Of a stretch of DNA of 62,604 bases, positions 12,393 to 29,715 are shown piece by piece; the stretch's first letter is position 1; each line of letters opens with the position of its first letter. Source of the DNA: Eubacterium sp. (GTDB taxonomy: Bacteria; Bacillota; Clostridia; Oscillospirales; Acutalibacteraceae). The notes under the pieces are model-generated. The model saw nothing but the letters and a program-made list of their open reading frames with translations, made no database searches and was not told the DNA's origin. Location of the stretch: positions 1 to 62,604 of the forward strand of contig JAFLSA010000002.1 in assembly GCA_022511185.1 (NCBI GenBank), given 5' to 3'. Made by a program: the position numbers and the translations under genes.

Positions 12393-12791
12393 ATGTACGA
12401 AACAAATCCTTATTTCTACGGCACAGGCAGAAGAAAAGAATCTGTAGCTCGTGTACGTGTTTACGCAGGTACCGGCAAAATCACAATCAACGACAGAGAC
12501 ATTGACGATTATTTCGGCCTTGAGACACTCAAGCTTATCGTTCGTCAGCCTCTTAATCTTACAGAGACAACTGAGAAGTTTGACATTGTTTGCCGTGTAA
12601 ACGGCGGCGGTGTTACAGGTCAGGCAGGCGCAATCCGTCACGGTATTGCAAGAGCTCTTCTCCAGTATGACGAGGCGCTCCGCCCTGCACTTAAGAAGGC
12701 AGGCTTCCTCACACGTGACCCACGTATGAAGGAAAGAAAGAAGCCGGGTCTCAAAAAAGCTCGTCGCGCACCACAGTTCTCAAAGAGATAA
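12393..12791 (+). CDS. rpsI: 30S ribosomal protein S9
   Basis: [27 protein letters not shown] ... RAPQFSKR C-terminus. Confidence 0.96.
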
Positions 12792-12792
12792 T
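12775..12792 (+). repeat. Left attachment site core (attL), overlapping rpsI stop codon
   Basis: AGTTCTCAAAGAGATAAT identical to 29698-29715. Confidence 0.88.
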
Positions 12793-12879
12793 CTTCAGAT
12801 TTCTCACGACTGCTGGGAGCCTTTATTTACAGGGTTTTTGGAGTTGTCAGATGGACTGAATAGTAGTGAATATTGCGTT

Positions 12880-12912
12880 ACAAGTAACAAACAAGTAACA
12901 CACAAGCAACAA
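12880..12912 (+). repeat. Three tandem 11-bp repeats, putative integrase arm-type sites (left)
   Basis: ACAAGTAACAA ACAAGTAACAC ACAAGCAACAA. Confidence 0.6.
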
Positions 12913-12925
12913 ATTTATATGTATA

Positions 12926-12965
12926 AAAGAGATGTTTTTCTTAATGGAAAGGCATCTCTTTCTTT
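12926..12965. terminator. Hairpin between rpsI end and integrase gene
   Basis: AAAGAGATG...CATCTCTTT stem (12926-12934 / 12953-12961). Confidence 0.5.
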
Positions 12966-12969
12966 ATGT

Positions 12970-14022
12970 TTAAATCTTGTTGATTGCATTCACAAGTTCC
13001 TCTATGTCCAAATGAGTGTAGATTTTTTCGGTTAGCGTCATTGCACCCGAATGACCAACAATCTTTTTGATTATCGTCTGGCTTACATCTGCTTCCACAA
13101 GCATCGAAACACAAGTGTGTCTACAACAATGCGGAGTTTGTTTTAAGCCGAGATTGGTCATTAGTGGTAAGAAATAACTATCATAGTAATTACGGTATTT
13201 GAATTGTTCTCCGTCTTCTGTATGAAGAAGATATTCGCTGTCGGTATCGTTATACCAGTTCTTAAAGAATGGCAATACCTTGTCTGCTATCGGAACTTTT
13301 CTTATACCGTTTTCTGTTTTGCTGGCTAAAACATCAAAATACTGTTCATCCAAATGAACGTTTTCTTTTTTCAAATCAAGCATTTCGGATATTCTTACAC
13401 CTGTGTAGATCAGCATTAAAACAATCTGATAATACTTTTCGTCCTTTTGCTTCCACAGGAGTTCGATATCCTTTTTGGTAAATTTGTTTCTATCCATTTT
13501 GTTAGGATTTCGGTCTTTATATTTTAATATATCAACAAATTCCGAATAATCTTTATTGCAAATATCATTCTTCATTGCATAGTTATATAACTGACCGAAA
13601 AGCACCTTTAGCTTTCGTAAAGTCGGATAGTTTTTACCGCAGTTATCAACTACATACTGTAAATCTGCAAGTCTAATATCTCTAAATGCTTTGTTATACA
13701 AAGACTTACAAAGCTTGTATGAAGCCTGATAACCTTTAACATTTGATTCAGATATTGAAGGGAACTTACCTGCCGACCACCTATCAAAGATTTCCTTAAA
13801 AGTAATCTTTGATGCAGTAATGTCAAACGGATTTTTATTATACTCTGCGAGCATTTGCAATCCGTCTGCCTTTGTGGGCGCATATCCTATTACAATATAA
13901 TCCTGAATCTGCTTGTCCTTTTCTTCGTCATAATGCCAGCCAGCAGTTTTTCTGACAAGATAGGGATTTCTTCGCCTACCGGATAATTTAGTGACGCCGC
14001 CATATCCGTTTGGCAATCTCAA
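12970..14022 (-). CDS. Tyrosine-type site-specific integrase
   Basis: IYTGVRISEMLDL (R), HCCRHTCVSMLV (HxxR), GHSGAMTLTEKIYTH (H...Y) catalytic set. Confidence 0.93.
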   Translation of the reverse strand: MRLPNGYGGVTKLSGRRRNPYLVRKTAGWHYDEEKDKQIQDYIVIGYAPTKADGLQMLAEYNKNPFDITASKITFKEIFDRWSAGKFPSISESNVKGYQASYKLCKSLYNKAFRDIRLADLQYVVDNCGKNYPTLRKLKVLFGQLYNYAMKNDICNKDYSEFVDILKYKDRNPNKMDRNKFTKKDIELLWKQKDEKYYQIVLMLIYTGVRISEMLDLKKENVHLDEQYFDVLASKTENGIRKVPIADKVLPFFKNWYNDTDSEYLLHTEDGEQFKYRNYYDSYFLPLMTNLGLKQTPHCCRHTCVSMLVEADVSQTIIKKIVGHSGAMTLTEKIYTHLDIEELVNAINKI

Positions 14023-14062
14023 TACTCCAAAACCTCCTTAATAAAATATTTATGATAAGAGC

Positions 14063-14689
14063 TTACTGCTCGTCATCACCATCATCCTGTTGTGCTATCA
14101 TTTCTTCCATACGATTTTTATTTAATTCAATAAATCTTCTCATTCTTGTTTGATTGTCTAAGTACTCTCTTTCTTTATCAGTTAAAAAGCAATTGCTGTG
14201 CCTGTTTATCATCTTTTCTTCCCATTCATCATACTGCTGGTATCCCATCCAGTAAACATTTACAGAGTCTCTGTTTTTCTGAAATTCTTTTAACGTCTGT
14301 ACTAAAGGATAATTAATTTCGTGATTTTGATCATTGCCATTTATGATGATAGAGCATTTCCAATTATGAATATCCGTTGCTTTTTCGACTTCGATTTTGA
14401 AGTCGATTTCTTTTTTCTTATCAAGCTCAAAAATAAATGCATAAACATCGGCAAGGCTTTCAATTTTAATATGCGAAGAGTCATAACCGAGAAAATAATT
14501 AATCGGTACATTTAATATTTCAGCAATCGTCTGCAGCGTGGATATGGAAATGTCTATATCTCCGCTTTCGTATTTCTGAATAGTACGCAAAGATTTATCA
14601 AGTTCAAATGCTAAATCACTTTGATTCATATTTGCTTTCTTTCTCTGTTCGGTAATTTTTTTACCGATTTCAATCTGTAAATTACCCAT
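14063..14689 (-). CDS. XRE-family (helix-turn-helix) transcriptional regulator
   Basis: IGKKITEQRKKANMNQSDLAFELDKSLRTIQKYESGDIDISISTL; start chosen at 14689 by AGGTG RBS (ORF extends to 14737). Confidence 0.85.
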   Translation of the reverse strand: MGNLQIEIGKKITEQRKKANMNQSDLAFELDKSLRTIQKYESGDIDISISTLQTIAEILNVPINYFLGYDSSHIKIESLADVYAFIFELDKKKEIDFKIEVEKATDIHNWKCSIIINGNDQNHEINYPLVQTLKEFQKNRDSVNVYWMGYQQYDEWEEKMINRHSNCFLTDKEREYLDNQTRMRRFIELNKNRMEEMIAQQDDGDDEQ

Positions 14690-14845
14690 TTGTATCACCT
14701 CTACAAACAATATACCACATTTCAAAATGTATTTCAAGTGTTAATGTGAATTTTTATTTCGTGTGAATATTGACAAGTCGTATAAATTCATATATAATGA
14801 ATTTGCGAATTAATATTTCACAATAATTAAATGGGAGGTGATACA

Positions 14846-15082
14846 ATGACGGAAAAGGTTTATATTGAAAGTCCTAATTTCACAGGAAGAAATGTTCCAA
14901 TAACCGAAATTGCAAAGGCGATAGGAAAAGATGCTCAGTATGTCCGAATCGGACTTCAAAAAGGCATCCTCAAATTTGGATATGCCATAAAGCTGGAGAA
15001 TTCAAGTGAGTACAATTACTACTGTCCCGACAAAAAGGTATGGGAAGAAACGGGTTACTTCAATGAAAAGAGAGCTGGATAA
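14846..15082 (+). CDS. Excisionase-like small DNA-binding protein
   Basis: ITEIAKAIGKDAQYVRIGLQKGILKFGYAIK resembles conjugative-transposon Xis-type wHTH proteins; GGGAGGTG RBS; position divergent from XRE/int. Confidence 0.6.
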   Translation: MTEKVYIESPNFTGRNVPITEIAKAIGKDAQYVRIGLQKGILKFGYAIKLENSSEYNYYCPDKKVWEETGYFNEKRAG

Positions 15083-15089
15083 TAAAAAA

Positions 15090-15127
15090 TGACTGTCTGT
15101 TGTATCGAACAAGATAACAGGCAGTCA
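15090..15127 (+). terminator. Terminator-like hairpin
   Basis: TGACTGTCTGTT...AACAGGCAGTCA. Confidence 0.6.
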
Positions 15128-15149
15128 TTAATTTTTAAGCCACTGATAA

Positions 15150-15240
15150 TTTGCAGTCGCAGACTGTAACGAGCATAGGTTTTGTAAAGCCACAGGCACA
15201 AAACCTGACGGCTAAAGCCGAATGGGGACACCCCTTTAAC
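15150..15240. other. Candidate oriT region
   Basis: Cluster of inverted repeats (CAGTCgcaGACTG; AGGTTTTGT-n12-ACAAAACCT; GGCTaaAGCC; GGGGacaCCCC) immediately upstream of mobC and relaxase genes. Confidence 0.5.
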
Positions 15241-15272
15241 CCCGCAAAGATAAGATGAAAGGAAAATGATTT

Positions 15273-15527
15273 ATGAGAACAAGAAACAGATTAATTAATA
15301 TTCGTGTTACCGATGGAGAACGAGCAGCACTTCAACGCAATGCTAAAAAGTGCGGCTTGTCTTTGTCGGCATATTTAATAAAAGCAGGACTTAATCAGAA
15401 TATCAAAGCGGCACCAAGTAGTTATTTATATGAGGCATATCAGGCTATTTGCAATATGAATAATTCGCAATTAAACGGTATTGCAGACTTGATTCTTAAA
15501 GCCTATCACGAAGGAGGGAGCAGCTAA
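15273..15527 (+). CDS. MobC-like relaxosome accessory protein (ribbon-helix-helix)
   Basis: RLINIRVTDGERAALQRNAKKCGLSLSAYLIKAGL; overlaps the relaxase start. Confidence 0.75.
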   Translation: MRTRNRLINIRVTDGERAALQRNAKKCGLSLSAYLIKAGLNQNIKAAPSSYLYEAYQAICNMNNSQLNGIADLILKAYHEGGSS

Positions 15528-16909
15528 TGGCAGTAACAAAAATATGGGCGATTAAAGACAGCTTATCCCGTGTTGTAGATTATGCAGCCAATCCCGATAA
15601 GACAATTTATTCAGATTTACAAAAGATTATTCACTATGCTGAGAACGGAGAGAAGACCGTTAGCGGTGACGAAAAAGCCTGTTTTGTTACAGGGGTTAAT
15701 TGTAACGCCGATACTGCTTACGAAGAAATGCACGCAGTACAAAAACGTTTTAACAAGGTTGGCGGAAACGTTGCTTACCACGCATATCAAAGCTTTAAAA
15801 CAGGTGAGGTTACTCCTGAACAATGTCATAGGATAGGCGTTCAGCTTGCAAAAGATATGTGGGGTGCAGATTATCAAGTGCTTGTTGCTACTCATTTCAA
15901 TACGGGCACTTATCACAATCACTTTGTTATCAATTCAGTTAATATGTGGACTGGTAAAAAGTTTGATTGCAACAAAAAAGCATACTATAAATTCAGAGAT
16001 TTGTCTGATAAATTATGTGAAAAAGAACAGCTTACTGTGATAAAAAATCCAAGTGGTAAAACGCCGAGAAGTTTGTACTTTGCAGAAAAACGAGGTGAGC
16101 CGACAAAGTATAATCTGATGCGAATTGCCATTGATTATGCAATTAGTATTAGCTTAAATCAAGCACAATTCAGAAAAGCATTAGAGAAACAAGGTTATAT
16201 TATCAACCTTGATCCGAGATTAAAATATGCTACTATTCGTTCAGTAAATGATACAAAAAATACTCGCCTATATCATTTAGGTGAGCAGTATGACAGAGAG
16301 GGTATTTTCAACAGAATGAGAGAAAATGATGTCTGGATCGCAAGTGAAAAGTATAGCGTTTACATCCAAAGCACAAAGCCAAAAACTATTCAACCAAAGA
16401 AATATGTTTTTAAAAGCAGTTTTTCTAAAACTAAAAAGATAACAGAATTAAAAGCATTGTATCTATATTACTGCTATCGGTTAGGTTACCTTCCGAAAAA
16501 GAATCAACGCAAACCTTTATCACCCGAAATGAAACAAGCTTGGAGAAAGATTGATAAAATTTCTAATCAAGTCCGTCTTATCTCAAAACACAATCTGAAT
16601 GATATTATTGATGTTGAAAACTTTATTTCAAGCAATAATAAACAAATTATAATTGTTAAACAACAAAGAGATAAAATATACAACAAACTCAGAAGATGCA
16701 AAGATACTGATAAAATATCAAGCCTTAAATCTGATAGAGATGTATGTTCAGACACATTAAAAAGGTTGCGAACAGATAACCGTGTTGCTAAATCAATTCT
16801 CAATGATATTGATGAAATTAAATCAAACATAGAATCTGAAATAAACATACAACATCAGAGATTTTCACCTACAAAACAGAAAAGAAGGGAGTTAGAATAT
16901 GACAGATAA
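15527..16909 (+). CDS. MobA/MobL-type relaxase
   Basis: ATHFNTGTYHNHFVINSVN (relaxase histidine motif), AYHAYQSFKTGEVTPEQCHRIGVQLA. Confidence 0.9.
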   Translation: MAVTKIWAIKDSLSRVVDYAANPDKTIYSDLQKIIHYAENGEKTVSGDEKACFVTGVNCNADTAYEEMHAVQKRFNKVGGNVAYHAYQSFKTGEVTPEQCHRIGVQLAKDMWGADYQVLVATHFNTGTYHNHFVINSVNMWTGKKFDCNKKAYYKFRDLSDKLCEKEQLTVIKNPSGKTPRSLYFAEKRGEPTKYNLMRIAIDYAISISLNQAQFRKALEKQGYIINLDPRLKYATIRSVNDTKNTRLYHLGEQYDREGIFNRMRENDVWIASEKYSVYIQSTKPKTIQPKKYVFKSSFSKTKKITELKALYLYYCYRLGYLPKKNQRKPLSPEMKQAWRKIDKISNQVRLISKHNLNDIIDVENFISSNNKQIIIVKQQRDKIYNKLRRCKDTDKISSLKSDRDVCSDTLKRLRTDNRVAKSILNDIDEIKSNIESEINIQHQRFSPTKQKRRELEYDR

Positions 16910-17021
16910 AGGAGAAATGAAAGACGGAAACACATCATATGAAGTAGTTAGTCATTTCAATCCCAATGACGAAGAATATTTCATAAATCAGATAATCAGA
17001 AAGTCTGAGTACAAATTTTAG
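16899..17021 (+). CDS. Small ORF after relaxase
   Basis: 40-aa ORF MTDKGEMKDGNTSYEVVSHFNPNDEEYFINQIIRKSEYKF overlapping the relaxase end; RBS GGGAG. Confidence 0.5.
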   Translation: MTDKGEMKDGNTSYEVVSHFNPNDEEYFINQIIRKSEYKF

Positions 17022-17125
17022 TACGATACAAAAGATTGCGCTTTAAAGTGTTGAAGCAAAATATGTAATCGGTTAAAATGTAATTAACCTACAATCAAAC
17101 ATATTCGACTTAAGGAGGTATTACA

Positions 17126-17503
17126 ATGAAATCATTATTTGAAGAAATGGGTATAACTTATAGAGAAGTTGGAGATGTTAATCTCCCTAACCTTATCGCA
17201 ACAGAAACTAATTATTATATAGGTTTATGGGGGCAAAGACATAGGGATTACTTAAAAGAAAACCACAGAGTGCTTTATTATAATTTGCTAACGAAAGGCA
17301 AGCTCAATTCATATCTTCACGATATTGATGTTAGAGCAACGGAAATGTACGATCGACTTGTTAAGCAACTTGCAGAAAAACAAGGCATCACCGAACAACT
17401 CAAGGCAAAAAATCAAATGCTATGGGTACAGAAAATGAACAATATCGCAAATCAAGTGAGGGAAATGATTTACGATGATATTATATATAACCACATATAT
17501 TAG
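17126..17503 (+). CDS. TnpV-like transposon-encoded protein
   Basis: MKSLFEEMGITYREVGDVNLPNL...YIGLWGQRHRDYLKENHRVLYYNLLTKGKLNSYLHDIDVRATEMYDRLV. Confidence 0.8.
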   Translation: MKSLFEEMGITYREVGDVNLPNLIATETNYYIGLWGQRHRDYLKENHRVLYYNLLTKGKLNSYLHDIDVRATEMYDRLVKQLAEKQGITEQLKAKNQMLWVQKMNNIANQVREMIYDDIIYNHIY

Positions 17504-17512
17504 ATAAGCAAA

Positions 17513-17547
17513 ACAACCAATCCTATAAAATGGGATTGGTTGTTTTT
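17513..17547. terminator. Terminator hairpin after tnpV
   Basis: AACAACCAATCCTATAAAATGGGATTGGTTGTTTTT. Confidence 0.8.
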
Positions 17548-17630
17548 ATTGGTATGCCTAATAGGAGTTAAATCTGCTCCTATGCGGATTAGTTCCTAAG
17601 ATAATGTTACCTTGGTGAAAACGATGTATA

Positions 17631-19400
17631 TTAATCCTTATTTGCAAAACGCCAAATAGGATATGTTTTGAATTCTTTTTGCGATTCTTCAGGCAAAGAA
17701 TTTAACAAATTCACAGCATCATCTATTTCATCCATTAAAAGTAAACACCCTATTCTCAATTCATCTGAATCTGAATTTTTATAAATATTAATCAGCTCTT
17801 CTTTTTCATTAATTGATAAACGCCTTGTTCTAGCTAATATTTGAAATCGGTTAACCAGCGAAATTTCCTTCGTAAAATATTCAGGAGAATCACAAATCCA
17901 ATTTGACATCTGCATTATAGCGTCCAAAAGTTCATCATTTGGTCTTTCATCATACGCAAGTAGCATTTGCAGCATAACATTGTTAGCGCTTTCAATAAGA
18001 ACATTGCTAAGAGGTTTGCTTTTAAAATCATTAACAATACTAGAATAATCAACATTATCGCATTCTAGAATTGCGTCTTTATTTAATATATTAAATTGCG
18101 ATACCTCATATTCGTTATTAGCATTATCCTTAACTATTACCTCGCCATGTTTTTGAAAAAAGTCACAAATTCTTATACCCTTTTCTTCTTTAATAAAAAA
18201 CAGCAAAAATACAAGATTGGAAATTTTATATTTTGCAACTATTGGAGGTTCTTTCCTAAATTTTGTAGTTAGTTTATTATATAGAAAAGCATTTTTTAAT
18301 AAATCTAATCTTCTAAAATCCTCTTCAGAACATTTTTCTAAATCCAAATCCTTCTTAACATTTAATAAATTCAGTAACTGCAGCACTTCGTTACGTGACT
18401 CAAGCTGTTTTTCTAAAGAGTTGAGCTGTTCTTTTTTATTTTTAATTTCATCAAAATTTATGGTAAAAATATCTTTTCCAAATTTAAATCCATTATTTTT
18501 AATGAGTGCAATTACAAATTTTAAATCATTAATCTGATTATTTAAAGTACCCTTAATTTTAACTCTATAATTTAGTTTCTTTTCATTTTCTTTAAAGGTC
18601 AACGTAAAACTATTACCTATATTAATTATTGTTGAATTTCTAAGATGTGTTATTTTATATGACTCATAAAATTTCTCTTTTCCAGCATATATAGGTTTTT
18701 CAATAGTTTGGCTTCCACTAATGTAATCAATTTTATCTATATGCTGAACCGGAATAGGCAAAGGATTACCTTTAGTTTTAGCATAGATATATAATTCTTT
18801 ACCCTCCATAAAAAACGGTAATATTGAATCTCGGCCTTCAGTGCTTAATGGTGTATATGAAAAGGATAGTGACTCAAGAGTTCCGCTTTTCAGCAATTCT
18901 TCTAAATTTATTGGTTCAAGGTTTGCAAAACTGGATTGCTTTTGACTATCGGAATAAAAATTAAGAAGTAATTCAAATTTTTCATCATTTTTGGAAGGGA
19001 ATTTTTTCAAATGAACGCTTATCATTTTCTTGTTTGATTTAAATTTTAATAGTTCATTTATATTGAACGGCAATAATGAAGCATAATAAATTCCTAAGGT
19101 ATCACCCTTTTCATCTAAGTATACTACAAAAAATATAGCTCCACTATGATTTTTATAATTATTCAAATCAGCAATAGAAATTGAATACTTTGGTGTTTTA
19201 GGTATCTTCTTAACCATTTTGCCTTTAACTTGAACATTTATTCTTTTAAAATTTTTCTTCGCAAAATTGTTGCTTGAAAATATACCTATATATCCATCAA
19301 AACTAGGTCCTTTTTCATTTTCTCCAACATAAGCTTTTAATTTATCAACTTTTGAAATACTTGCTTTAATTGCTGAAGTTGCAAGTTGCTCAATATCCAT
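17631..19400 (-). CDS. DUF4365-like domain protein, 589 aa
   Basis: N-terminus DIEQLATSAIKASISKVDKLKAYVGENEKGPSFDGYIGIFS...RINVQVKGK resembles DUF4365 (PD-(D/E)XK-like fold); AGGTGG RBS. Confidence 0.6.
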   Translation of the reverse strand: MDIEQLATSAIKASISKVDKLKAYVGENEKGPSFDGYIGIFSSNNFAKKNFKRINVQVKGKMVKKIPKTPKYSISIADLNNYKNHSGAIFFVVYLDEKGDTLGIYYASLLPFNINELLKFKSNKKMISVHLKKFPSKNDEKFELLLNFYSDSQKQSSFANLEPINLEELLKSGTLESLSFSYTPLSTEGRDSILPFFMEGKELYIYAKTKGNPLPIPVQHIDKIDYISGSQTIEKPIYAGKEKFYESYKITHLRNSTIINIGNSFTLTFKENEKKLNYRVKIKGTLNNQINDLKFVIALIKNNGFKFGKDIFTINFDEIKNKKEQLNSLEKQLESRNEVLQLLNLLNVKKDLDLEKCSEEDFRRLDLLKNAFLYNKLTTKFRKEPPIVAKYKISNLVFLLFFIKEEKGIRICDFFQKHGEVIVKDNANNEYEVSQFNILNKDAILECDNVDYSSIVNDFKSKPLSNVLIESANNVMLQMLLAYDERPNDELLDAIMQMSNWICDSPEYFTKEISLVNRFQILARTRRLSINEKEELINIYKNSDSDELRIGCLLLMDEIDDAVNLLNSLPEESQKEFKTYPIWRFANKD

Positions 19401-19532
19401 ATTCCCACCTCTTTTATTAATTATATAATGAAAAGAAATTTATTGCAATAAAATGTAAGGTATTGACATATAACACTATAAAGTTATTTGTAGTTTTATT
19501 AACTCAATATTTATCCTTCATAACATACAAAT

Positions 19533-19566
19533 AAAAAAGCATCAGTCAAAATGACTGATGCTTTTT
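19533..19566. terminator. Bidirectional terminator downstream of the fusion gene
   Basis: AAAAAAGCATCAGTCAAAATGACTGATGCTTTTT. Confidence 0.8.
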
Positions 19567-19569
19567 AAG

Positions 19570-19617
19570 TGCGCCAGGCAGGACTTGAACCTGCATAGTT
19601 CCCACTAGATCCTAATA
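19570..19617 (-). pseudogene. 3'-half of a tRNA-Leu-like gene (from anticodon loop to acceptor), probable att relic
   Basis: Reverse strand TTAGGA-TCTAG-TGGGAACTA-TGCAGGTTCAAGTCCTGC-CTGGCGCA: T-arm GCAGG/TTCAAGT/CCTGC, variable stem and acceptor 3' strand present; no recognisable 5' half/D-arm. Confidence 0.65.
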
Positions 19618-19773
19618 GTATCGTTACCTTAATGAATTAATCTTCATAACGAAATTATTTATTTACAATTTTAAAGTATTTAAATTTGTAAAAGCACAAA
19701 AGACGTATCTTTAATCTTAGACATTTAGAAAAATAATATATAGAGTAATTAATTCTGCACATTATTCTGTTGT

Positions 19774-22700
19774 TTATAAAGAAAAACTCATTTTATTAAA
19801 ACCGTCTCTAATTCTATCAATATTTGATGAGAATTTTTGTATTCCTCCAGATAAAACTTCTTTGTTGAAACACTGTGCGCACGAATAATCCTCATATACT
19901 CGAATTCCAAACAACCCCTCTGCACACGGATATTTAGTGCAATTATATATACAATCTACAGAATAAATTCTTTTTGGTATTAATACTTTAATACCCATTA
20001 CATTTGTAGACATATAATCATCAACTAATGAAAAATCATCATCAGTAAGTTTAAATAAATCTTGTATCTTTGCCTTGATTTCAGCAATAGATATAGGTTG
20101 AAATTTTTCTGGGGCGCCATCAATAGAAAAAAGATCCAAAAATTTAATATCAACTCTTTTTCTTGCGGCATAATTTATCAAATCAACAATATCATCAAAA
20201 TTATAACTAGTGATTACAGAGTTGATTTTAATTGAAAAACCATTATCAATCAAGAAATCAATTCCTTTTTTAACATCTTCTAAACAGTTTTGCCCTGTAA
20301 TTTCTTTGTATTTTTGTGGATTCAAACTATTGAGTGTAATATTAAATTTAAGTTTACTTCCCTTAATTCTTTCAAAATTAGATTTTAATTTAATTATTTG
20401 AGTACCATTACTAGTAAATCCTATGTCCTTAAATTGGTTTTGAAATTCATTACACTCTTCAAGAATATTTGGATAAAGCAATGGCTCTCCACCACTAATT
20501 TTAATTTTTTCAAATCCGCACTTTTTTGCTTCGTTTAGTAGGGTTCTAATATCAAAATCAGAATTATTATTAATATTATTTCCAATCAATGAGCTTATTC
20601 GACCTTCGTGATGACAATATGAACAGTTTAAATTACATTTTTCTGATACAATTATTCTTAAATATTTACTTATTGAATTTTTTAATGAGTTCAAACTACT
20701 ATCAGAATATACATTTTCAATCGATTCAAAATATGCTTTTGATACCTCTAATATTTTTTTCTCATTTTTACATTTTGACAAAACTTTATAACGTTCCATA
20801 TAATCGTTTATATCTAAAAGACTTCTCAAAATACTTTCATCAGATATATTATATTCCATTAATCGATTATTTGCTAAAGTATAATTAACTTGTTCTAATG
20901 GGTATTTAAAAGAAGTATACCATAAAACAAAATGAATTATAATATCATCAAGAGGCATGCAATTTTTACGAAAAACAGTATAATTATCATCATAATAAAT
21001 TTCTTCTAATAAATCGCTTTTCCTATCAACCATTAATCTAAGAAGTGCAATAATAGCTTTTTCATAATAATTACACCTATCATTTAAATCTGATACTTTA
21101 TTGATATTTATCTTATTGAAAATAGAAACTAAATTAATTTTAGGGAACTCACTTTTAGACTTCAAATTCAGCAAATAGTAGGCACAATTCCATGATATCA
21201 TAAAATTACTTTTTGATGTTAAAAGTTGCTCTATTGTTGTTTTTCGAATTATACTTCGAAATTCAGATGCCATTTCTATTCCAAAAAGTTTTTTTTCGTC
21301 ACAACTCTGCAATAACATTTTTGAAATCATGCTTTGAATTGAAGAAGAACATACTGTGCTTGTTTCATTCTCAGGTATCATTATTCTTTTTAACGTATCA
21401 ATAGCTTGCCATCTAACTTCCAAAATAGAGGAATTTAAATATTTTATAATTTCATCACATAAAGTGCCAATTTGCGATGGTTCGCAATTTTCTAATTTTG
21501 TTTCCAAATTTATAATTTCATTTATATCTTCACTCCAAATTGATTCATAATTAGAGTTCTTACCTTCTTCTACGCCCATTGTAATATAATCACATGGATA
21601 TGATATAGGAATTAGTGAATGTAATTTCGACTTAGGCATTAATATCGCCGAATCTTTCTTGACTAAGAAAAAATCATTATCAATATAAGCAAATAATTCA
21701 CCATTGCTTACATATGTTATTTCATCCATTTCTTTATGTAAATGTGGAGTAATATAATCAGATGTTTTTGCTTTAGTAATGTACAAATTAAAAAAACCAT
21801 TATTATATTTAAATCGCATAGCGCCATCACTTATTGATGATGAATTTATCACTTTTCCTGTTATTTCATCCATGCTACTTTTTTCTTCAGCAAGATGGTA
21901 TGTATCAAAATTATTATTTTCATGGTTTTTATAATCAGTTGATTTCCATTTACCATTTTCAAATTTGAATATTTTTGTATCGATATGTTCATTAGCACTT
22001 TTGTCCATTGAATGGAATAAAAAGCTTGGACAATTATAATCATCCTTAAATAGTCCAGAAGTAGCTATTTGTTCAATATTATCAAATTTCGCATCCTCTA
22101 TTTGATGAATATGTCCGCAAAAGTAATATTTTGTATTAACACTCTTTAAAAAATTAATAATCATATTTCTTGGATGCTCATCAAACATTTGTAATGGATG
22201 ATGACCAATGACGATAGTAGGATATCCATCTTTTATATTGTTAATTTTAGGTAATTCATATTCACTTAGCCATATTTTATTAGAATCATTTACTTTGACT
22301 TCTTCCAAATTTTGAAAATCCGTACCAATAGGTTGTCCTGAAAAAACACTTGTGTTTAACACTACAATATTTATTGCATTATCTATTGTAGCTACATGAG
22401 ACTTAATTTGTGAATCAAAGTTTTCGCCAAACGAATTATTTATCAATATCTCATAATCACTAAAGTCGGTTCTTAATTTTCTAGCATAATATTCTTGTTG
22501 CTGGATTTTAGACTCATTATTTTCTTCTTTCCATTGATTGAGTAATGTAAACCTGGATTTATTTCGTATATAATCATGGTTTCCTGGGCAAATAATAATT
22601 CTATCGCATATTGTTTTTAAATCGTCCAAAAACTCTTTAGCATTATTTACATTATCTAAATTATTGTATTCTCCTCTATGAATAATATCTCCAGTTATTA

Positions 22701-22836
22701 AAATAAAATCCAGGTTTTTAATATCTTCATTTAGAATTTTAGTAAACTTTTCTCTCAATGTACTATCCGTCCATTTACTAAATTCACTACCAATATGAAG
22801 ATCAGATAATTGAATCCATTTAACATTACTTGTCAT
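19774..22836 (-). CDS. Multidomain fusion: calcineurin-like metallophosphoesterase + cupin + helical-repeat region + MoaA-like radical SAM enzyme
   Basis: MPE motifs DLHIG, GDIIHRGE, GNHDY, GHHP, GHIH; cupin motifs PHLHKEMDEITYVSNGE and PKSKLH; radical SAM CNLNCSYCHHEGR and SGGEPLL; C-terminal Cys-rich CIYNC-PC-CAQC. Start set at 22836 (RBS AAGGGGA; ORF opens at 22932). Confidence 0.85.
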   Translation of the reverse strand: MTSNVKWIQLSDLHIGSEFSKWTDSTLREKFTKILNEDIKNLDFILITGDIIHRGEYNNLDNVNNAKEFLDDLKTICDRIIICPGNHDYIRNKSRFTLLNQWKEENNESKIQQQEYYARKLRTDFSDYEILINNSFGENFDSQIKSHVATIDNAINIVVLNTSVFSGQPIGTDFQNLEEVKVNDSNKIWLSEYELPKINNIKDGYPTIVIGHHPLQMFDEHPRNMIINFLKSVNTKYYFCGHIHQIEDAKFDNIEQIATSGLFKDDYNCPSFLFHSMDKSANEHIDTKIFKFENGKWKSTDYKNHENNNFDTYHLAEEKSSMDEITGKVINSSSISDGAMRFKYNNGFFNLYITKAKTSDYITPHLHKEMDEITYVSNGELFAYIDNDFFLVKKDSAILMPKSKLHSLIPISYPCDYITMGVEEGKNSNYESIWSEDINEIINLETKLENCEPSQIGTLCDEIIKYLNSSILEVRWQAIDTLKRIMIPENETSTVCSSSIQSMISKMLLQSCDEKKLFGIEMASEFRSIIRKTTIEQLLTSKSNFMISWNCAYYLLNLKSKSEFPKINLVSIFNKININKVSDLNDRCNYYEKAIIALLRLMVDRKSDLLEEIYYDDNYTVFRKNCMPLDDIIIHFVLWYTSFKYPLEQVNYTLANNRLMEYNISDESILRSLLDINDYMERYKVLSKCKNEKKILEVSKAYFESIENVYSDSSLNSLKNSISKYLRIIVSEKCNLNCSYCHHEGRISSLIGNNINNNSDFDIRTLLNEAKKCGFEKIKISGGEPLLYPNILEECNEFQNQFKDIGFTSNGTQIIKLKSNFERIKGSKLKFNITLNSLNPQKYKEITGQNCLEDVKKGIDFLIDNGFSIKINSVITSYNFDDIVDLINYAARKRVDIKFLDLFSIDGAPEKFQPISIAEIKAKIQDLFKLTDDDFSLVDDYMSTNVMGIKVLIPKRIYSVDCIYNCTKYPCAEGLFGIRVYEDYSCAQCFNKEVLSGGIQKFSSNIDRIRDGFNKMSFSL

Positions 22837-23172
22837 TAGCTTTCCCCTTATAAATAAAAATTTTACTATACACATGATTATTAATAACACTAAAAATAAT
22901 AATGAAGCAATAGTATTTGCAAAACTGCACATTTTTTCGACAAAATTGTATATTTTTAAATTGATTCTTGTCTTGCATGATAATTAAGTGTCGAAAAATG
23001 TAAAAAGTAACAAAAGTTTTGAAAAATTATAGTTTTATTATGATAATTCAATTTATCCAAATTTATAAAAGAGTTTTGAGCCTTACAAGATTAAAACTTT
23101 TTTTGATTGAAAAATACATAATCATATAATAATCAATGTTAAGACAATGCAAAAACAATAGATTTGACACCA

Positions 23173-23220
23173 AAACAAAAACGCTGTAACCCCATAATAG
23201 AGCTTACAACGTTTTTGTTT
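23173..23220. terminator. Long hairpin in the intergenic region between the Shedu-like and fusion genes
   Basis: AAACAAAAACGCTGTAA / TTACAACGTTTTTGTTT. Confidence 0.55.
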
Positions 23221-23591
23221 TTTGTTTGATTTTTAGTGTTCAAATGGCCTATGCTTTGTTTCAAATAATATCCCAAACCATTTCGTCACCGCAGATGTAC
23301 GGATATAGATAAAATAACTGTGAACTATTATCAAAACGAAATACCTGCTCTGATGCTTTAAAATCTCTGCGTAAAGATGTCCGCACCACAAAACATATCA
23401 TCGAAGATAACGTCAAAATTAAACAAAATATTAAGGCGGAAAAAAATTCAACAGCAAAGATTTACTGTTAAAGACAGATACAAAGTAAAAAGAAAATTTA
23501 ATTTAGATTATTATAGATAAATGATAAATAACATAGATTAGTGTAATATGGACTATTATAAGTAAGGAGTCAAGTGTAAAACTTGACTCCT

Positions 23592-24590
23592 TTAAAATGG
23601 TAAATCATCTTCTTCATATACATTTTCTTCAAACTCATCTTCAGTAATACCTAAAATATTTTTAGCTCTTGCCAACAATTGATCATATGTTAATATAGTA
23701 ATTTGGCTATATGCTGAATTCAAAATTCTAAATGCTTTTTGTTTTTCATCATCCCAATCATATGATCTGCCATAAATCAATGTACATCTTGGTTTTACAA
23801 CTTTACATCCTATTTGGTCTCTAAAAGAAGCATCGTTAGTCTTTTGTTCAACGGAATAAATATAGTTTAGACATTGTGTAATTGCTTTAGTTAAAGTTGA
23901 GGATGGAATATAATTATTGTGATCTTTTGAAAGTGCCCAAAAAGGCATTTCGTTAGGTTTTTTTATTTCAACTATATCCACAAAACCATCATAAGATTGC
24001 ATAATATAGTCGGCGATATTATGAGTATCTATATTGCGTTCGTCAACGATTCTCGCAAAGTCAGAACCTAATATCCACTTGTTGTATTCAAACCAATCTT
24101 GCCATGAACTTTCGGGCAAATCTTCTCGCAACATATATTCAAATTCTTCAAGAGATTTTTTCTTATTGATAAAATTAACAGCATAATAAACATCTTTTGT
24201 CAAAATCTCGCTTTCAACAAGAGTCTTTGCGGTTTCTTCACTATTTTGAAGAATTGATTTGAATTGTTCAATCAATTCACTTTGATTGGAATCAACACTT
24301 ATGTATTCGCCTTGCCCAAGAGTTAAAGGCGTATAGTTATCACTAATATATTTTACAAGCGCCTCAAGTTCAGAATTTTTTAACGTTAATTCACTTTTAG
24401 GTGTATTCAATTCTGGTTTGCGATTTCTCACATAATATCTACCGATTTTCAACCCTATATCTATTTTTGATTCATTATTATGATTGATTTTCATTAATAT
24501 AGCTTGAGAATATACCCTTTGTCCTTGATAAAGAATTTTAGGAGTAGCATAAGGAACGCCGTTATTTGAACTTTTTATTTTTTGACTCAT
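23592..24590 (-). CDS. sduA: Shedu (SduA/DUF4263)-family antiphage nuclease-like protein
   Basis: WQDWFEYNKWILGSDFARIVDER...GFVDIVEIKKPNEMPFW...TKAITQCLNYI (PD-(D/E)XK core). Start at 24590 has GGAG RBS; ORF opens at 24686. Confidence 0.78.
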   Translation of the reverse strand: MSQKIKSSNNGVPYATPKILYQGQRVYSQAILMKINHNNESKIDIGLKIGRYYVRNRKPELNTPKSELTLKNSELEALVKYISDNYTPLTLGQGEYISVDSNQSELIEQFKSILQNSEETAKTLVESEILTKDVYYAVNFINKKKSLEEFEYMLREDLPESSWQDWFEYNKWILGSDFARIVDERNIDTHNIADYIMQSYDGFVDIVEIKKPNEMPFWALSKDHNNYIPSSTLTKAITQCLNYIYSVEQKTNDASFRDQIGCKVVKPRCTLIYGRSYDWDDEKQKAFRILNSAYSQITILTYDQLLARAKNILGITEDEFEENVYEEDDLPF

Positions 24591-24612
24591 ATGTAGACTC
24601 CATGTTTTATTT

Positions 24613-25707
24613 CTAAAGCTTGGCACTAAATGGTAATGATTTGATATAATCTTCCATAAATTGGAAATCTGGCTGTTCGTTATCATCTATTGGTAAGTAT
24701 AATTTTGTTTGTTTTATTAAATCTTTTGTAAAAGCTCTACCAAATACAGGATATCTATATTTTTCTTTGTTCAATAAAGATATAATAAATTCAGCAGTAT
24801 AAACACTTAACCAATCTGCTCTTACTATAATTATATGTGGACCTGTAATAAATTTGTGATTTTGATAAAAAATTGTTGAAGTAGTATCTCCTATAGTTAT
24901 GGCATTGGCTTTTTCTAATCCCACGTAATCTAAAGCCTGCACATATTTAGCTATACCATTGTTTTCGTCTGTTCTTGTAATATATAACACATAACTTTCA
25001 TCAATGGCTTCAACTAAATCAGAAGAATTATAGGACTTTCCATTATATACTTTTGCATTCAAATCTTGTTCTAAGGAAAATAGTTTCCACTTTCTGTCCG
25101 ATAATTTAAGCTTTTTTGAATATTGACATCCCGCATATTGATATTCAAATTTATTTTGATCAATATTGTCTAGATACCAACAGGATTTTTCATACCCATC
25201 TTGTAAAAAATAATCAGGAATTCCTTTAACACTAGAATTTAAGTTTTCTATATATGACTCCATATATTTGTAATCAGGCTCGTTGTTTGAATCAACAGGG
25301 AGTTTTATTTTTGTATTTTTTAATTGTTTCTCAACTGTCCATTTTCTTCCACCATATGAATACATTTCGGCTTCGATCTTAAGTATTTGAATAAGAAAAA
25401 AAGCTAAATTTTTATTTAATGGATATTGTACGGTATCTATTGTGACAATCTTTTCACTTGCAAAAAATGGTTTGCTTTGATAAAAACAAGCGCCAATACT
25501 ACCATCATATGCCAAAGATATAAGATTTCCTTTCCGATTTGCGACATCTACATAAGTTAGAACACCGTTGTTTTCTTTAGTAGTGCTTATATAGGGTATA
25601 TCTCCAGATATCATATTTTTTATATATGATGATTCTCCTCGGTGAATACTAAAATACTTTTCATCACCTAGTAAAAATTCTCCCCATTTACAATTATTTA
25701 ATGACAT
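24613..25707 (-). CDS. Restriction-modification specificity (S) subunit
   Basis: Two target-recognition-like halves (GDIPYISTTKENNGVLTYV; ...SLEQDLNAKVYNGKSYNSSDL...YVLYITRTDENNGIA); TRD-like FFASEKIVTID and KFITGPHIIIVRADWLSVYTAEFIISLL. Start at 25707 with GGAG RBS; ORF opens at 25755. Confidence 0.8.
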   Translation of the reverse strand: MSLNNCKWGEFLLGDEKYFSIHRGESSYIKNMISGDIPYISTTKENNGVLTYVDVANRKGNLISLAYDGSIGACFYQSKPFFASEKIVTIDTVQYPLNKNLAFFLIQILKIEAEMYSYGGRKWTVEKQLKNTKIKLPVDSNNEPDYKYMESYIENLNSSVKGIPDYFLQDGYEKSCWYLDNIDQNKFEYQYAGCQYSKKLKLSDRKWKLFSLEQDLNAKVYNGKSYNSSDLVEAIDESYVLYITRTDENNGIAKYVQALDYVGLEKANAITIGDTTSTIFYQNHKFITGPHIIIVRADWLSVYTAEFIISLLNKEKYRYPVFGRAFTKDLIKQTKLYLPIDDNEQPDFQFMEDYIKSLPFSAKL

Positions 25708-25708
25708 A

Positions 25709-28087
25709 CTAATTCTCCAATAATCCATTTTCATCCATGTATTTGAACAAAGCATATTTTTTTAGAGTTATTTCAAAATCACTATCAGAAAGATTTGAAT
25801 AATCTGTTTCAATATATGCTTCTGCTAACGCTTCATCACAAATAGATATTTTTTTCTTTAACCAAATATATTGGTTTGGTGCGGCAGTACCATCTATTTG
25901 ATCAACCCATTCTTTTCTTATGCAATTCCACGCACCCGAATCTTTTCGACCATTATGTGGAATAACCTTAAATCCATCATCTTGCCATCTTGCGAAGAAG
26001 ACAGATTTATCTTCATCGTGCTTATAGTGAGCCTTAAATACCATAATGCAGGTTGCGGTTCCAACATGACTATCAAAAAACACATTTGCTGGCATTGTCA
26101 TACAAGCTAATAAAGTGTGGTGTTGTAAAATTTCAGCCCTTAATTTTTCGCCACTGTTTCCAGCACAGGACATCGGAACAATTGCAATACCTATACCTCC
26201 GTCTTTTAGATAGTGCAACATTGCAGCTACAAAATCCAATTCGTCTTGCCCCTTGGAAAAAACAACCTCATCCATTCGAGTATCTTCAAGTTCTTTGTTT
26301 GTTCTTTCAATTAATATCTTTTGTTTCTCAATATTGGCCTGTATTTTTTTTATTTCGACTTCGGTTACTCTACTATCTTTTTTCTTTGCTTGGGATAATT
26401 TTTTCTTTAATACATTGATTTTACCTTCATATTCCTCTTTTCTTTTAATAATCTCATAATTTTGAGATGATGAGTTATCTTTTTTATCAAGCGAATATGG
26501 TGGATTGATCATAGCAATATCTATATCACCAAAACTTGCTAATGCTTCATGAAGTGGTATTTTGTCGTTATCATTCAAATATGTTTTTCCACTATCGTCA
26601 ACAGGTGCATAAGAGTCGACTAATAATGAGGAACAATTAAACAAATTCGATTTTCCGTCGCCATGAAATCTCATGTTCGCATAAGCTAATGCATACATTG
26701 ATGGGTCTCTTTCAACACCAATAAGACTATTCTTTTGGGCTGAACTATACTTATTGTTTTTCTCTGTTTCGCTTATTTTTTGTGCGGAAATATTTTCTTT
26801 AATTCTGGCTAATGCAGAAATTAAAAACGCTCCTGTACCACAGCATATATCTAATACTTTTGTTGTCTCGGTCAGTTTTTTGTCAGAATAGTATTCAGCA
26901 ATATCACAAAACAACTCTGTTATATGCTTTGGAGTTAGCACAATGCCTTTTTCTTTTGCATTACCCTTTGTAAATCGTAGGAAAGTAGTATAAAATTCTC
27001 CCATTACATCAATGCCAGAATAATGTTCTAATATCTCTATTACATTTTCATAAAGAGAGTAAATACAGCGAGATAATACTGTATCTCCATCTGTAAAGTC
27101 TCGGTTTTCGCCTTTTGGCGCTCTTAGTAATTCATCCTTTGACAGTAAATTATTATAGAACTTTCTTAATGCGGTTCTCTTACCTTTCGGTATTTTGTCA
27201 ATATCCCAAATACCTCTAACATAATCATCTTCATATTCATTACCATCACCATACAAAGCTGCCTTCAACATTTTTACAGAACTTCTGCCTATTGAATCGG
27301 AGAGCATTCTTTTTGATTTTGCCACCCTTTTTCCATCAATAGCCGATTTCGTATCTTTGTATAGTTTTGATTCGTGGTTAGTCAACCCTAAAATGATAGC
27401 AGAAACAAATCCAGCTTTAGAATTATCTTCAATCCCGTTTGCCCTCAAAAAATTCGCACAAGATAAAGTATATCTTCTTAATTCTTTTTTTACTTCAGCT
27501 TCTGTTTCGGCAAATCTTTCTAATACAATATCTATATCTTTTTCATACTGATTAATTGAAGGGATGTCGTCTTCCAATGTACCATCTGTTATAATTTCAA
27601 TATCTGATACTTCTGCATTTTTAGGCCAAACAAAAGACGTTATCCTGCTTTTTATATTGGTTTGTCCTGAAATAGCAATCGCAACAACATCATAGTTGTC
27701 TGATAAAAAAGAAGCGTACCATAACGCACCATCAATTGCATATTTTTCTGTATCATCTGACGAGCCAAACCCATTCAATTTATACTCTTCAATATTTGAA
27801 TACCTACTATGCTCATTTGTCTCTGCTTTACATTCGATAACTATAATTACATTAGAATTATCTTTAACAACCATAAAATCTGGAGTGCCTTTATTTCCCA
27901 TAGTTTGCTTTTTGCTAGCTTTGGAAAAAACATCGGAAATCCAGTTATAGTCAGTTCCTTTATAACTATCTTCTTTGAACCAAGTGATGCCATCTACTTT
28001 ATTATTTTGCTTAGATGGATAGTCAGGTATCTCGCTTAACATATCTGCAGTAAGTCCCTTTGTTGTTTCTTCGCTTGCTTTACTCAT
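25709..28087 (-). CDS. BcgI-like restriction-modification protein: N-terminal PD-(D/E)XK nuclease-like domain fused to N6-adenine DNA methylase
   Basis: GTPDFMVVKDNSNVIIVIECKAE (nuclease-like), DICCGTGAFLISAL (SAM binding), DIAMINPPYSL (NPPY). RBS AAGGAG. Confidence 0.85.
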   Translation of the reverse strand: MSKASEETTKGLTADMLSEIPDYPSKQNNKVDGITWFKEDSYKGTDYNWISDVFSKASKKQTMGNKGTPDFMVVKDNSNVIIVIECKAETNEHSRYSNIEEYKLNGFGSSDDTEKYAIDGALWYASFLSDNYDVVAIAISGQTNIKSRITSFVWPKNAEVSDIEIITDGTLEDDIPSINQYEKDIDIVLERFAETEAEVKKELRRYTLSCANFLRANGIEDNSKAGFVSAIILGLTNHESKLYKDTKSAIDGKRVAKSKRMLSDSIGRSSVKMLKAALYGDGNEYEDDYVRGIWDIDKIPKGKRTALRKFYNNLLSKDELLRAPKGENRDFTDGDTVLSRCIYSLYENVIEILEHYSGIDVMGEFYTTFLRFTKGNAKEKGIVLTPKHITELFCDIAEYYSDKKLTETTKVLDICCGTGAFLISALARIKENISAQKISETEKNNKYSSAQKNSLIGVERDPSMYALAYANMRFHGDGKSNLFNCSSLLVDSYAPVDDSGKTYLNDNDKIPLHEALASFGDIDIAMINPPYSLDKKDNSSSQNYEIIKRKEEYEGKINVLKKKLSQAKKKDSRVTEVEIKKIQANIEKQKILIERTNKELEDTRMDEVVFSKGQDELDFVAAMLHYLKDGGIGIAIVPMSCAGNSGEKLRAEILQHHTLLACMTMPANVFFDSHVGTATCIMVFKAHYKHDEDKSVFFARWQDDGFKVIPHNGRKDSGAWNCIRKEWVDQIDGTAAPNQYIWLKKKISICDEALAEAYIETDYSNLSDSDFEITLKKYALFKYMDENGLLEN

Positions 28088-28119
28088 TTTAAATCTCCTT
28101 GTTTTCGCTCTTTTTTATT

Positions 28120-28306
28120 TAATAATCTATGATTAACCAATTAACTTTTATCATCAAACTCTGTGAATGCTTTTTCAACAAGAATTTTCATTGTATGAAT
28201 CATGGTTTGAAAATCAGTCATAACGTTATATCTTTTTAGCAAAAGCTTGCCATTTCTTTTGTTTTATTCTTTAATCTTTCGAGAATAGAAGAAGCTTTAT
28301 CAGCCA
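28120..28306 (-). pseudogene. Deletion remnant of an AbiEii-family toxin gene
   Basis: Start ATG at 28306 overlaps the abiEi stop; N-terminus MADKASSILERLKNKTKEMASF is AbiEii-like, followed directly by a short C-terminal-like stretch (LKRYNVMTDFQTMIHTMKILVEKAFTEFDDKS*). Confidence 0.55.
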
Positions 28307-28902
28307 TTAAGCAGCACTCCCATAAGCTCAGTAACCTTTTTATAAACTTTTAATTGCTTTGCGTATTTTGATAGATTTGCTAAATTTTTCTTATCATCAG
28401 TAATATAGGCGTTAATTGCTTTGTTGAAAATCTCGCTGTCGAGTTGGTTTTTGTATTTAAAGCAATCGCAAATTGTTCGCTCACGGTCATACACATTAAG
28501 CGTAAATCCATTAAAATCATCTGTCGTTTTGCCTATTTCAAAAAGTTCATTTTGAATGTAATAAGCCTTTATTGGCACTTCATCAATTTTTAATTTGCTT
28601 CGTGAAATTGTTCTTGGTACAGCAATATTCCATTCTCTTGGTACATAATCGCTATAACCATAGTGAAACAGAGCAGAGTGAACACAAACAATTCCTTCAG
28701 GCAAAAGGGTAGATAAGATTTGTTCTTCAGATATATTTGTTTCTGACAGTCTATAATATCCATGCTTTACTCTTTCAATAAAAGAGTTATCGACTAAATT
28801 TGTAATATCAGATTTGGTAAGTCCTGCATTTATAAGGTCAGCCGTTTTTATAATTCCACCTGATTTCTCAATTGCATTTTTAGCAATATCCCTTTTGTTC
28901 AT
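28300..28902 (-). CDS. AbiEi-family type IV antitoxin/transcriptional regulator
   Basis: N-terminal wHTH (GGIIKTADLINAGLTKSDITNLVDNSFIERVKHGYYRL), HSALFHYGYSDYVPREWNIAVPR, YDRERTICDCFKYK. Confidence 0.85.
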   Translation of the reverse strand: MNKRDIAKNAIEKSGGIIKTADLINAGLTKSDITNLVDNSFIERVKHGYYRLSETNISEEQILSTLLPEGIVCVHSALFHYGYSDYVPREWNIAVPRTISRSKLKIDEVPIKAYYIQNELFEIGKTTDDFNGFTLNVYDRERTICDCFKYKNQLDSEIFNKAINAYITDDKKNLANLSKYAKQLKVYKKVTELMGVLLNG

Positions 28903-28911
28903 AGTTCACCA

Positions 28912-29024
28912 ACTTTCAATACACAAATTAAAAAAAGCTGTGTATCAAAAGTATAATAACAAAAATATACAAAAAAATCAATACTTTTAATACACAAATT
29001 AAGAGTACTGTGTATTGAAAGTAT
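28912..29024. promoter_or_regulatory. Two long inverted-repeat operator copies upstream of abiEi
   Basis: ACTTTcAATACACA..TGTGTATcaAAAGT (28912-28953) and ATACTTTtAATACACA..TGTGTATTgAAAGTAT (28981-29024), 71 bp apart. Confidence 0.7.
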
Positions 29025-29096
29025 TGAAGAATTATAGTATATTAGATAATGAAAAACATTTTACTTGATATACGAATAGAATCTAAGGATAAAGCT

Positions 29097-29576
29097 ATGA
29101 ATGTTGAAATAAGACTCGCAGAAATTCAAGAACTCAGTTTGATATACGAATTTTATAGAGTAGTATGTACTGCATTAGAAAATGAAATATATACACCTTT
29201 ATGGCAAATTGATAATTATCCTTGCATTGAAGATATAAAAAATCATATTAACAATGAAGATATGTACATTGCTATATATGATAACCAAATCGTTGGCGCA
29301 ATGGCTATAGCAAATCATAATGATTATTCATCTGTACATTTATTAACTGTTCATCCTGATTATCGAAAACAACATTTAGCTGAAAGTATGATTAAGAAAT
29401 TGTTTCAAATTGCAGATGAACGAAAAAATCATAAGATTATCCTTGATGTTGTTAAAGACAATTTACCTGCGGAAAAGCTCTATAATAAATTTGGATTTGA
29501 GTTTACAGGTGAAAAATATGAATTAATTGAGAGAATTGGTAATGTGTGTTTTAACACTTATGAGTATTTGACTTAA
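29097..29576 (+). CDS. GNAT-family N-acetyltransferase
   Basis: VHLLTVHPDYRKQHLAESMIKKLF, LYNKFGFEFTGEK. Start at 29097 (AAGGA RBS) or 29049. Confidence 0.85.
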   Translation: MNVEIRLAEIQELSLIYEFYRVVCTALENEIYTPLWQIDNYPCIEDIKNHINNEDMYIAIYDNQIVGAMAIANHNDYSSVHLLTVHPDYRKQHLAESMIKKLFQIADERKNHKIILDVVKDNLPAEKLYNKFGFEFTGEKYELIERIGNVCFNTYEYLT

Positions 29577-29630
29577 TAAAGAATCATATTTAAGTAAATA
29601 GATGGTTTGAATAGTTATACGCATTGTTGC

Positions 29631-29652
29631 ATAAGCAACGCACAAGTAACAA
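29631..29652 (+). repeat. Two 11-bp repeats, putative integrase arm-type sites (right)
   Basis: ATAAGCAACGC ACAAGTAACAA, same family as 12880-12912. Confidence 0.55.
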
Positions 29653-29697
29653 AAATAAAAAGAAACCCTGTAAAATAGGGCGTTTGAGGGTGGTCGG

Positions 29698-29715
29698 AGT
29701 TCTCAAAGAGATAAT
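29698..29715 (+). repeat. Right attachment site core (attR)
   Basis: AGTTCTCAAAGAGATAAT identical to 12775-12792. Confidence 0.88.

Follow-up and report, generated by a model that had tools for sequence, protein, structure and literature searches.

We have analyzed a 62,604-nucleotide stretch of DNA from Eubacterium sp. (contig JAFLSA010000002.1 of assembly GCA_022511185.1), hereafter the window, in which a gene for the defence nuclease Shedu closes a compact operon, behind a BcgI-like restriction-methylase (M) and a specificity subunit (S). In the subfamily to which this Shedu belongs, Shedu is the constant part and the restriction system is the variable part. Considering this pattern, we propose, with the balance standing about even, that Shedu is an accessory nuclease directed at DNA ends after restriction, encoded in an operon headed by the regulator AbiEi on a mobilizable element, and possibly docked to host repair by its C-terminal tail. 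It is the order of the genes that suggests a partnership between Shedu and restriction.

Recurrence of Shedu behind restriction genes

Seven members of the subfamily were found, namely the Shedu of the window and those of loci L010, L012, L016, L018, L019 and L020 (the same record as L009). A search of 394 genomes across the order gave two relatives besides the window and one truncated relative, and a scan of genome contigs gave five loci; the relatives from these searches showed 56-60% identity, and the full-length Shedu of the subfamily are 56-77% identical. Several of these loci belong to metagenome-assembled genomes, and single frameshifts and contig edges in them should be read with caution.

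Restriction genes or their scar lie directly upstream of Shedu in all seven members. The order is M-S-Shedu in L010 and AbiEi-M-S-Shedu in L019 (Eubacterium coprostanoligenes). L020 has AbiEi, AbiEii, a D12 methylase, an N6/N4 methylase and a FokI-type nuclease (FokI domains at 3e-13 and 3e-8) before Shedu, and L016, from a metagenome-assembled spirochaete, has two D12 methylases and an AlwI-type nuclease (1.5e-30). In L012, the end of an S gene at the contig edge is followed by a Shedu gene carrying an internal deletion. In L018, the order is AbiEi-AbiEii-Shedu, and the 226 bases before Shedu encode FMEYMKSLPYGDRI followed by a stop, which is the end of an S protein. Accordingly, the restriction types in the subfamily comprise three BcgI-like pairs, one FokI-type system and one AlwI-type system. 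Within the BcgI-like trio, identities are 29-31% for M and 26-33% for S, against 56-77% for Shedu.

The first-pass annotation, made from the window alone, had taken Shedu for a partner or second-line effector of the restriction system. The pairing does recur, in other genomes, in other families and in one other phylum, indicating that the M-S-Shedu arrangement is not due to chance. However, Shedu does not belong specifically to the BcgI-like enzyme, since FokI- and AlwI-type systems occupy the same position. The subfamily is rare: searches at the level of the class, the phylum and two families found distant Shedu and no further subfamily members, plasmid searches found distant Shedu only, and no relative was found in a phage collection and viral contigs searched with two Shedu alignments.

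Organization of the operon

The three genes run in the same direction (Table 1), with 1 nucleotide between the M stop and the S start and 22 nucleotides between the S stop and the Shedu start, and GGAG precedes each start; the spacing and starts read in the first-pass annotation were thus confirmed. Its gene identities also agree with the Pfam and PADLOC matches. M joins a nuclease and an N6-adenine methylase in a single chain, with the PD...ECK nuclease motif readable in its N-terminal part and matches to N6_Mtase (2.3e-25, Pfam) and IIG (1.2e-53, PADLOC). S is a separate subunit gene adjoining M, with Methylase_S matches in two stretches. Upstream alternative starts at 25755 and 24686 would give longer genes, and that at 24686 was rejected for Shedu as the homologues align from 24590.

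We looked for a promoter or terminator belonging to the Shedu gene itself and found no credible one. The scan gave 50 promoter-like sites against 42 +/- 6 in shuffled sequences, with 0 in the 22-nucleotide gap, and no terminator between the M, S and Shedu genes on their own strand. A hairpin lies directly 3' of the Shedu gene (-17.6 kcal/mol, z = -5.8). These features suggest that M, S and Shedu are transcribed together.

Table 1. Features of the Shedu operon and of the element that carries it (window coordinates).
Feature	Position	Strand	Description
M, BcgI-like restriction-methylase	25709..28087	-	792 amino acids; N-terminal PD-(D/E)xK (PDF...ECK), N6-adenine methylase (CCGTGAF, NPPY)
S, specificity subunit	24613..25707	-	364 amino acids; Methylase_S 1.2e-18, PADLOC Specificity_II 2e-24
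Shedu (SduA)	23592..24590	-	332 amino acids; SduA_C and PADLOC SduA, predicted fold
Shedu C-terminal tail ENVYEEDDLPF	23595..23627	-	SSB-tip-like; low model confidence, probably disordered
Perfect 12-bp hairpin 3' of Shedu stop	23564..23592	-	Likely transcript 3' end
AbiEi antitoxin/transcriptional regulator	28300..28902	-	200 amino acids, intact; PADLOC AbiEi 4e-64; first gene of likely operon
AbiEii toxin gene fragment	28141..28307	-	N-terminal MADKASSILERLKNK... and a piece resembling the C-terminal end; not functional
Two inverted repeats before abiEi	28912..29027		14-bp arms TGTGTATTGAAAGT / ACTTTTGATACACA and close copies; likely AbiEi operators
Integrative mobilizable element	12775..29715		16.9 kb
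Left att repeat	12775..12792	+	AGTTCTCAAAGAGATAAT; at rpsI 3' end
Right att repeat	29698..29715	+	Identical 18 bases; perfect repeat
Tyrosine integrase	12970..14022	-	Phage_integrase 2.3e-21
MobA/VirD2-type relaxase	15527..16909	+	Relaxase 2.7e-39
DUF4365 protein	17631..19400	-	589 amino acids; N-terminal DUF4365 at Pfam cut-off
Phosphoesterase-radical SAM protein	19774..22932	-	1052 amino acids; metallophosphoesterase (5e-18), weak cupin, radical SAM (2.8e-19, MoaA/viperin-like)

Fold and catalytic residues of Shedu

The Shedu of the window matched PF14082/SduA_C (4.5e-24, Pfam) and the PADLOC SduA model PDLC00385 (419 bits, 3.3e-126). The PD-(D/E)xK catalytic residues D194, E208, K210 and Q239 are invariant in 16 Shedu. 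The model predicted from an alignment of 16 sequences has a predicted local distance difference test score (pLDDT) of 70, and it supersedes an earlier, poor model from six sequences (pLDDT 49). The best Foldseek matches were 8ps5 (E 1.6e-10) and 8ti9 (E 4.2e-9), with the E. coli and B. cereus Shedu coming first, and the core fold compared with 8ti9_C gave a TM-score of 0.76. The N-terminal 150 residues, in the place of the DNA-end-binding sensor clamp of Shedu, showed no match to a Pfam family and modest model confidence.

C-terminal tail of Shedu and the host single-stranded DNA-binding protein

The C-terminus of the window Shedu, EEDDLPF, resembles the tip DDDDDLPF of the host single-stranded DNA-binding protein (SSB), which terminates in FEEIVDDDDDLPF. 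The C-terminus of every subfamily member consists of acidic residues and then [LI]PF, preceded by a linker that varies in sequence and length; P331 and F332 are invariant in the subfamily, and about 15 residues before them vary. Residues 320-332 have a pLDDT below 50, which matches the expectation for disorder. The window Shedu thus has the acidic residues, the hydrophobic-Pro-Phe at the very C-terminus and the predicted disordered linker of an SSB tip. The remaining Clostridia that host the subfamily likewise have SSBs ending in acidic residues and LPF, and in the spirochaete two SSBs terminate in FDDDGIPF and Shedu in YEFDGIPF. A hydrophobic-Pro-Phe end was present on 12 of the 351 distinct open reading frames of at least 100 amino acids in the loci retrieved, with Shedu accounting for 11 of the 12; outside Shedu, the count is 1 of about 327. 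The C-terminal DDDIPF of the E. coli SSB is a protein docking motif (PMC5872125). In the literature examined, which excludes Gu 2025 (Mol Cell), no paper linking Shedu with an SSB-like tail was found.

The LPF tail could instead be a docking or regulatory peptide of Shedu itself, involved in autoinhibition or oligomer control, or a coincidental acidic C-terminus; this alternative concerns the tail only and is compatible with an accessory role of Shedu in restriction. On the one hand, the tail is also present on Shedu with different N-terminal domains, and some variants, TVPF for instance, contain few acidic residues. On the other hand, what the tails have in common is an acidic stretch plus hydrophobic-Pro-Phe, the kind of end bound by SSB-interacting proteins. 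It always stands at the very C-terminus and is rare in the other open reading frames counted, and the spirochaete Shedu copy matches the DGIPF of its own host. We consider this alternative for the tail somewhat doubtful. As a separate observation, the sole non-Shedu open reading frame with such an end (L015:1245-2636, - strand) encodes 463 amino acids ending in CSQMELPF.

Proposed mechanism

According to PMC12904381, which summarises Loeff 2025, Shedu senses DNA ends and cuts at a fixed distance from them. In our proposal, the M-S enzyme would methylate host DNA and cut unmethylated incoming DNA, and Shedu would act at the ends made by restriction, nicking or trimming nearby, which would put the cut genome beyond ligation and repair. 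The acidic LPF tail would copy the host SSB tip and dock Shedu on SSB-binding repair proteins (such as RecQ, RecJ, RecO and PriA), placing it at sites where broken DNA is processed. We infer both the action on restriction ends and the docking of the tail. Considering that Shedu would need only ends, it could follow any restriction enzyme that produces double-strand breaks, and this could explain an exchange of restriction genes in front of a Shedu that persists. The overhangs are 3' after cutting by BcgI or Eco57I and 5' after cutting by FokI or AlwI. Accordingly, the type of overhang seems not to be the common factor.

Ligase and recombination can mend the cuts made by restriction, and it is an old question how cells render such cuts final. 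A constant Shedu with an SSB-like tail behind varying restriction systems suggests a general "second strike" on restriction-cut DNA; Shedu behind several restriction types would, if this is true, be a general answer to that question. If the tail is a true copy of the SSB tip, a defence nuclease plugs into the host repair hub. The pattern of a constant Shedu and a variable restriction system also gives a rule for genome mining. A wider claim would be that one class of Shedu nucleases follows type II and type III restriction as a general second step, receiving the ends left by any restriction enzyme, tethered to host repair by a copy of the host SSB tip and turning repairable cuts into lethal ones, and that an orphan AbiEi sets the expression of an exchangeable restriction-Shedu cargo on mobilizable elements; we regard this as rather unlikely.

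Distant Shedu and alternative explanations

Among distant Shedu, restriction neighbours are common and are not the rule. In another Shedu subfamily with a similar tail, the neighbouring systems are of Eco57I type, type III and AlwI type: L015 has two Eco57I-type proteins, L059 a type III Res, and L060 a D12 fusion, an AlwI-type nuclease and an AAA protein. The Shedu of L011 is linked to an IIG-like methylase, and in L100 and L102, on alphaproteobacterial plasmids, type I restriction operons enclose Shedu, with S on one side and HsdR on the other. Across 42 Shedu, tail and restriction neighbour were associated (10/5 against 6/21, Fisher p = 0.008), with neighbour classes that we assigned from gene lists and that are approximate.

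Several results weigh against the proposed accessory role or its link with the tail. The association gives p = 0.23 when the window subfamily is counted once. The restriction-linked Shedu of L100, L102 and L011 lack the PF tail, and the Shedu of L094 and L106 have a tail and no restriction neighbour. Accordingly, a strict rule by which a PF tail marks a restriction-linked Shedu is ruled out by these five loci, and it is not significant after the subfamily is collapsed. The Shedu of L059 and L060 end in FPF, though the hosts have LPF. In L018, the restriction genes have been lost save for the end of S, and the Shedu frame is still open, indicating that Shedu without them is not plainly useless. 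In other genomes, too, many Shedu stand alone; taken with L018, this indicates that Shedu can act by itself.

These points bear on a possible but doubtful alternative in which Shedu is an independent single-gene defence, stably linked to restriction genes only through a shared block of mobile defence cargo, and in which the last place in the operon merely supplies a promoter. Shedu is known elsewhere as a stand-alone system (PMC12904381, PMC12137116). In the window it belongs to the cargo of a mobilizable element, and this cargo varies between genomes of the same genus; in L018 Shedu outlived the restriction genes. However, every member of the subfamily has a restriction gene or its scar as its immediate upstream neighbour. 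The restriction systems are of three or more unrelated types, and the seven loci show no other defence gene in that position, where more varied neighbours would be expected of simple hitchhiking. A fail-safe role, in which Shedu would attack the cell's own DNA after a failure of methylation and breakage of the chromosome by restriction, and so guard against loss of the restriction system and render the operon addictive or abortive, is quite improbable. In its favour, Shedu shares its operon with restriction genes and has a toxin-antitoxin remnant at the head, end-sensing would cover chromosomal breaks too, and heterologous Shedu is toxic (PMC12904381); against it, the Shedu frame of L018 is still open although the restriction genes there are gone.

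Comparison with known systems

The window Shedu shares the PF14082 core, the conserved D, ExK and Q and the predicted fold with the B. cereus and E. coli types (PDB 8ti8/8ti9 and 8ps4/8ps5). In those chains, however, the acidic LPF tail seems to be absent, as the matches stop no more than a few residues short of the end of the chain, and the window Shedu differs from them by its short N-terminal part and its tight operon with restriction genes. The BcgI-like type IIB/IIG systems likewise have a nuclease-methylase fusion in tandem with a two-domain S, whereas the window operon adds Shedu as a third gene and AbiEi in front.

Nuclease domains of the paraMORC3 type near restriction operons were described in 2008 (PMC2292703). 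In paraMORC3, a GHKL ATPase is joined to a restriction-fold nuclease, and this nuclease domain was later assigned to Shedu (PMC12137116); the window Shedu differs in having no GHKL ATPase, another N-terminal part and other restriction types. A backup effector role of Shedu linked to BREX (PMC12839542) likewise places an extra nuclease beside a methylase-based defence, but here no BREX gene was seen, and Shedu is linked with type II restriction. AbiE type IV toxin-antitoxin systems likewise have AbiEi with inverted-repeat operators (PMC7319586, PMC3985639), whereas the toxin AbiEii of the window is fragmentary.

AbiEi as the probable first gene of the operon

The operon probably begins upstream of M, at AbiEi; this gene, the SSB-like tail and the mobile element had been overlooked in the first-pass annotation. 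The AbiE pair is incomplete in the window, with a whole AbiEi and, between AbiEi and M, a fragmentary AbiEii. The window AbiEi is 56-61% identical to those upstream of Shedu in L018 and L019. AbiEii is deleted differently in L019, frameshifted in L018, and intact (Pfam 1.5e-41) and paired with AbiEi in L020. In L018 and L019, an inverted repeat and the leader AAAGTTGGTGA precede AbiEi, as seen by eye; the short arms were not listed by the repeat finder. AbiEi represses its own promoter by binding inverted repeats there (PMC7319586, PMC3985639). Considering that AbiEii is reduced to a fragment, AbiEi has probably been retained only as a regulator, and it may control the whole operon.

The integrative mobilizable element

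The element is inserted at the 3' end of rpsI and carries the whole operon as cargo; rpsI and the preceding ribosomal gene were named from their sequence. It has an integrase, a relaxase and flanking attachment (att) repeats, from which its mobility is predicted. Besides these and the Shedu operon, it encodes a helix-turn-helix protein, a DUF4365 protein, a phosphoesterase-radical SAM protein and a likely acetyltransferase. In genome G298 of the same genus, a related element occupies the same site with the same repeats (L117, 850 and 17074), and its integrase-relaxase DNA is about 84% identical to that of the window. G298 keeps AbiEi and its operators (86% over window positions 28256-29022), with most of the repeat arms retained. 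Behind AbiEi, two genes replace M-S-Shedu (L117:13660-15032), encoding 265 amino acids with a weak Exo_endo_phos match and 190 amino acids without a Pfam match; this is possibly an unrecognised defence pair. As AbiEi and its operators are kept with other cargo, AbiEi heads a cargo slot.

Other observations

In L014 (8354-9585), a tailed Shedu (YDDDLPF), apparently split in two frames, adjoins a PIN-domain protein. On the element of the window, the 1052-residue phosphoesterase-radical SAM protein has PADLOC matches to an effector endonuclease and to prokaryotic viperin, and it is a possible new defence fusion. The adjoining DUF4365 protein has no PADLOC match.

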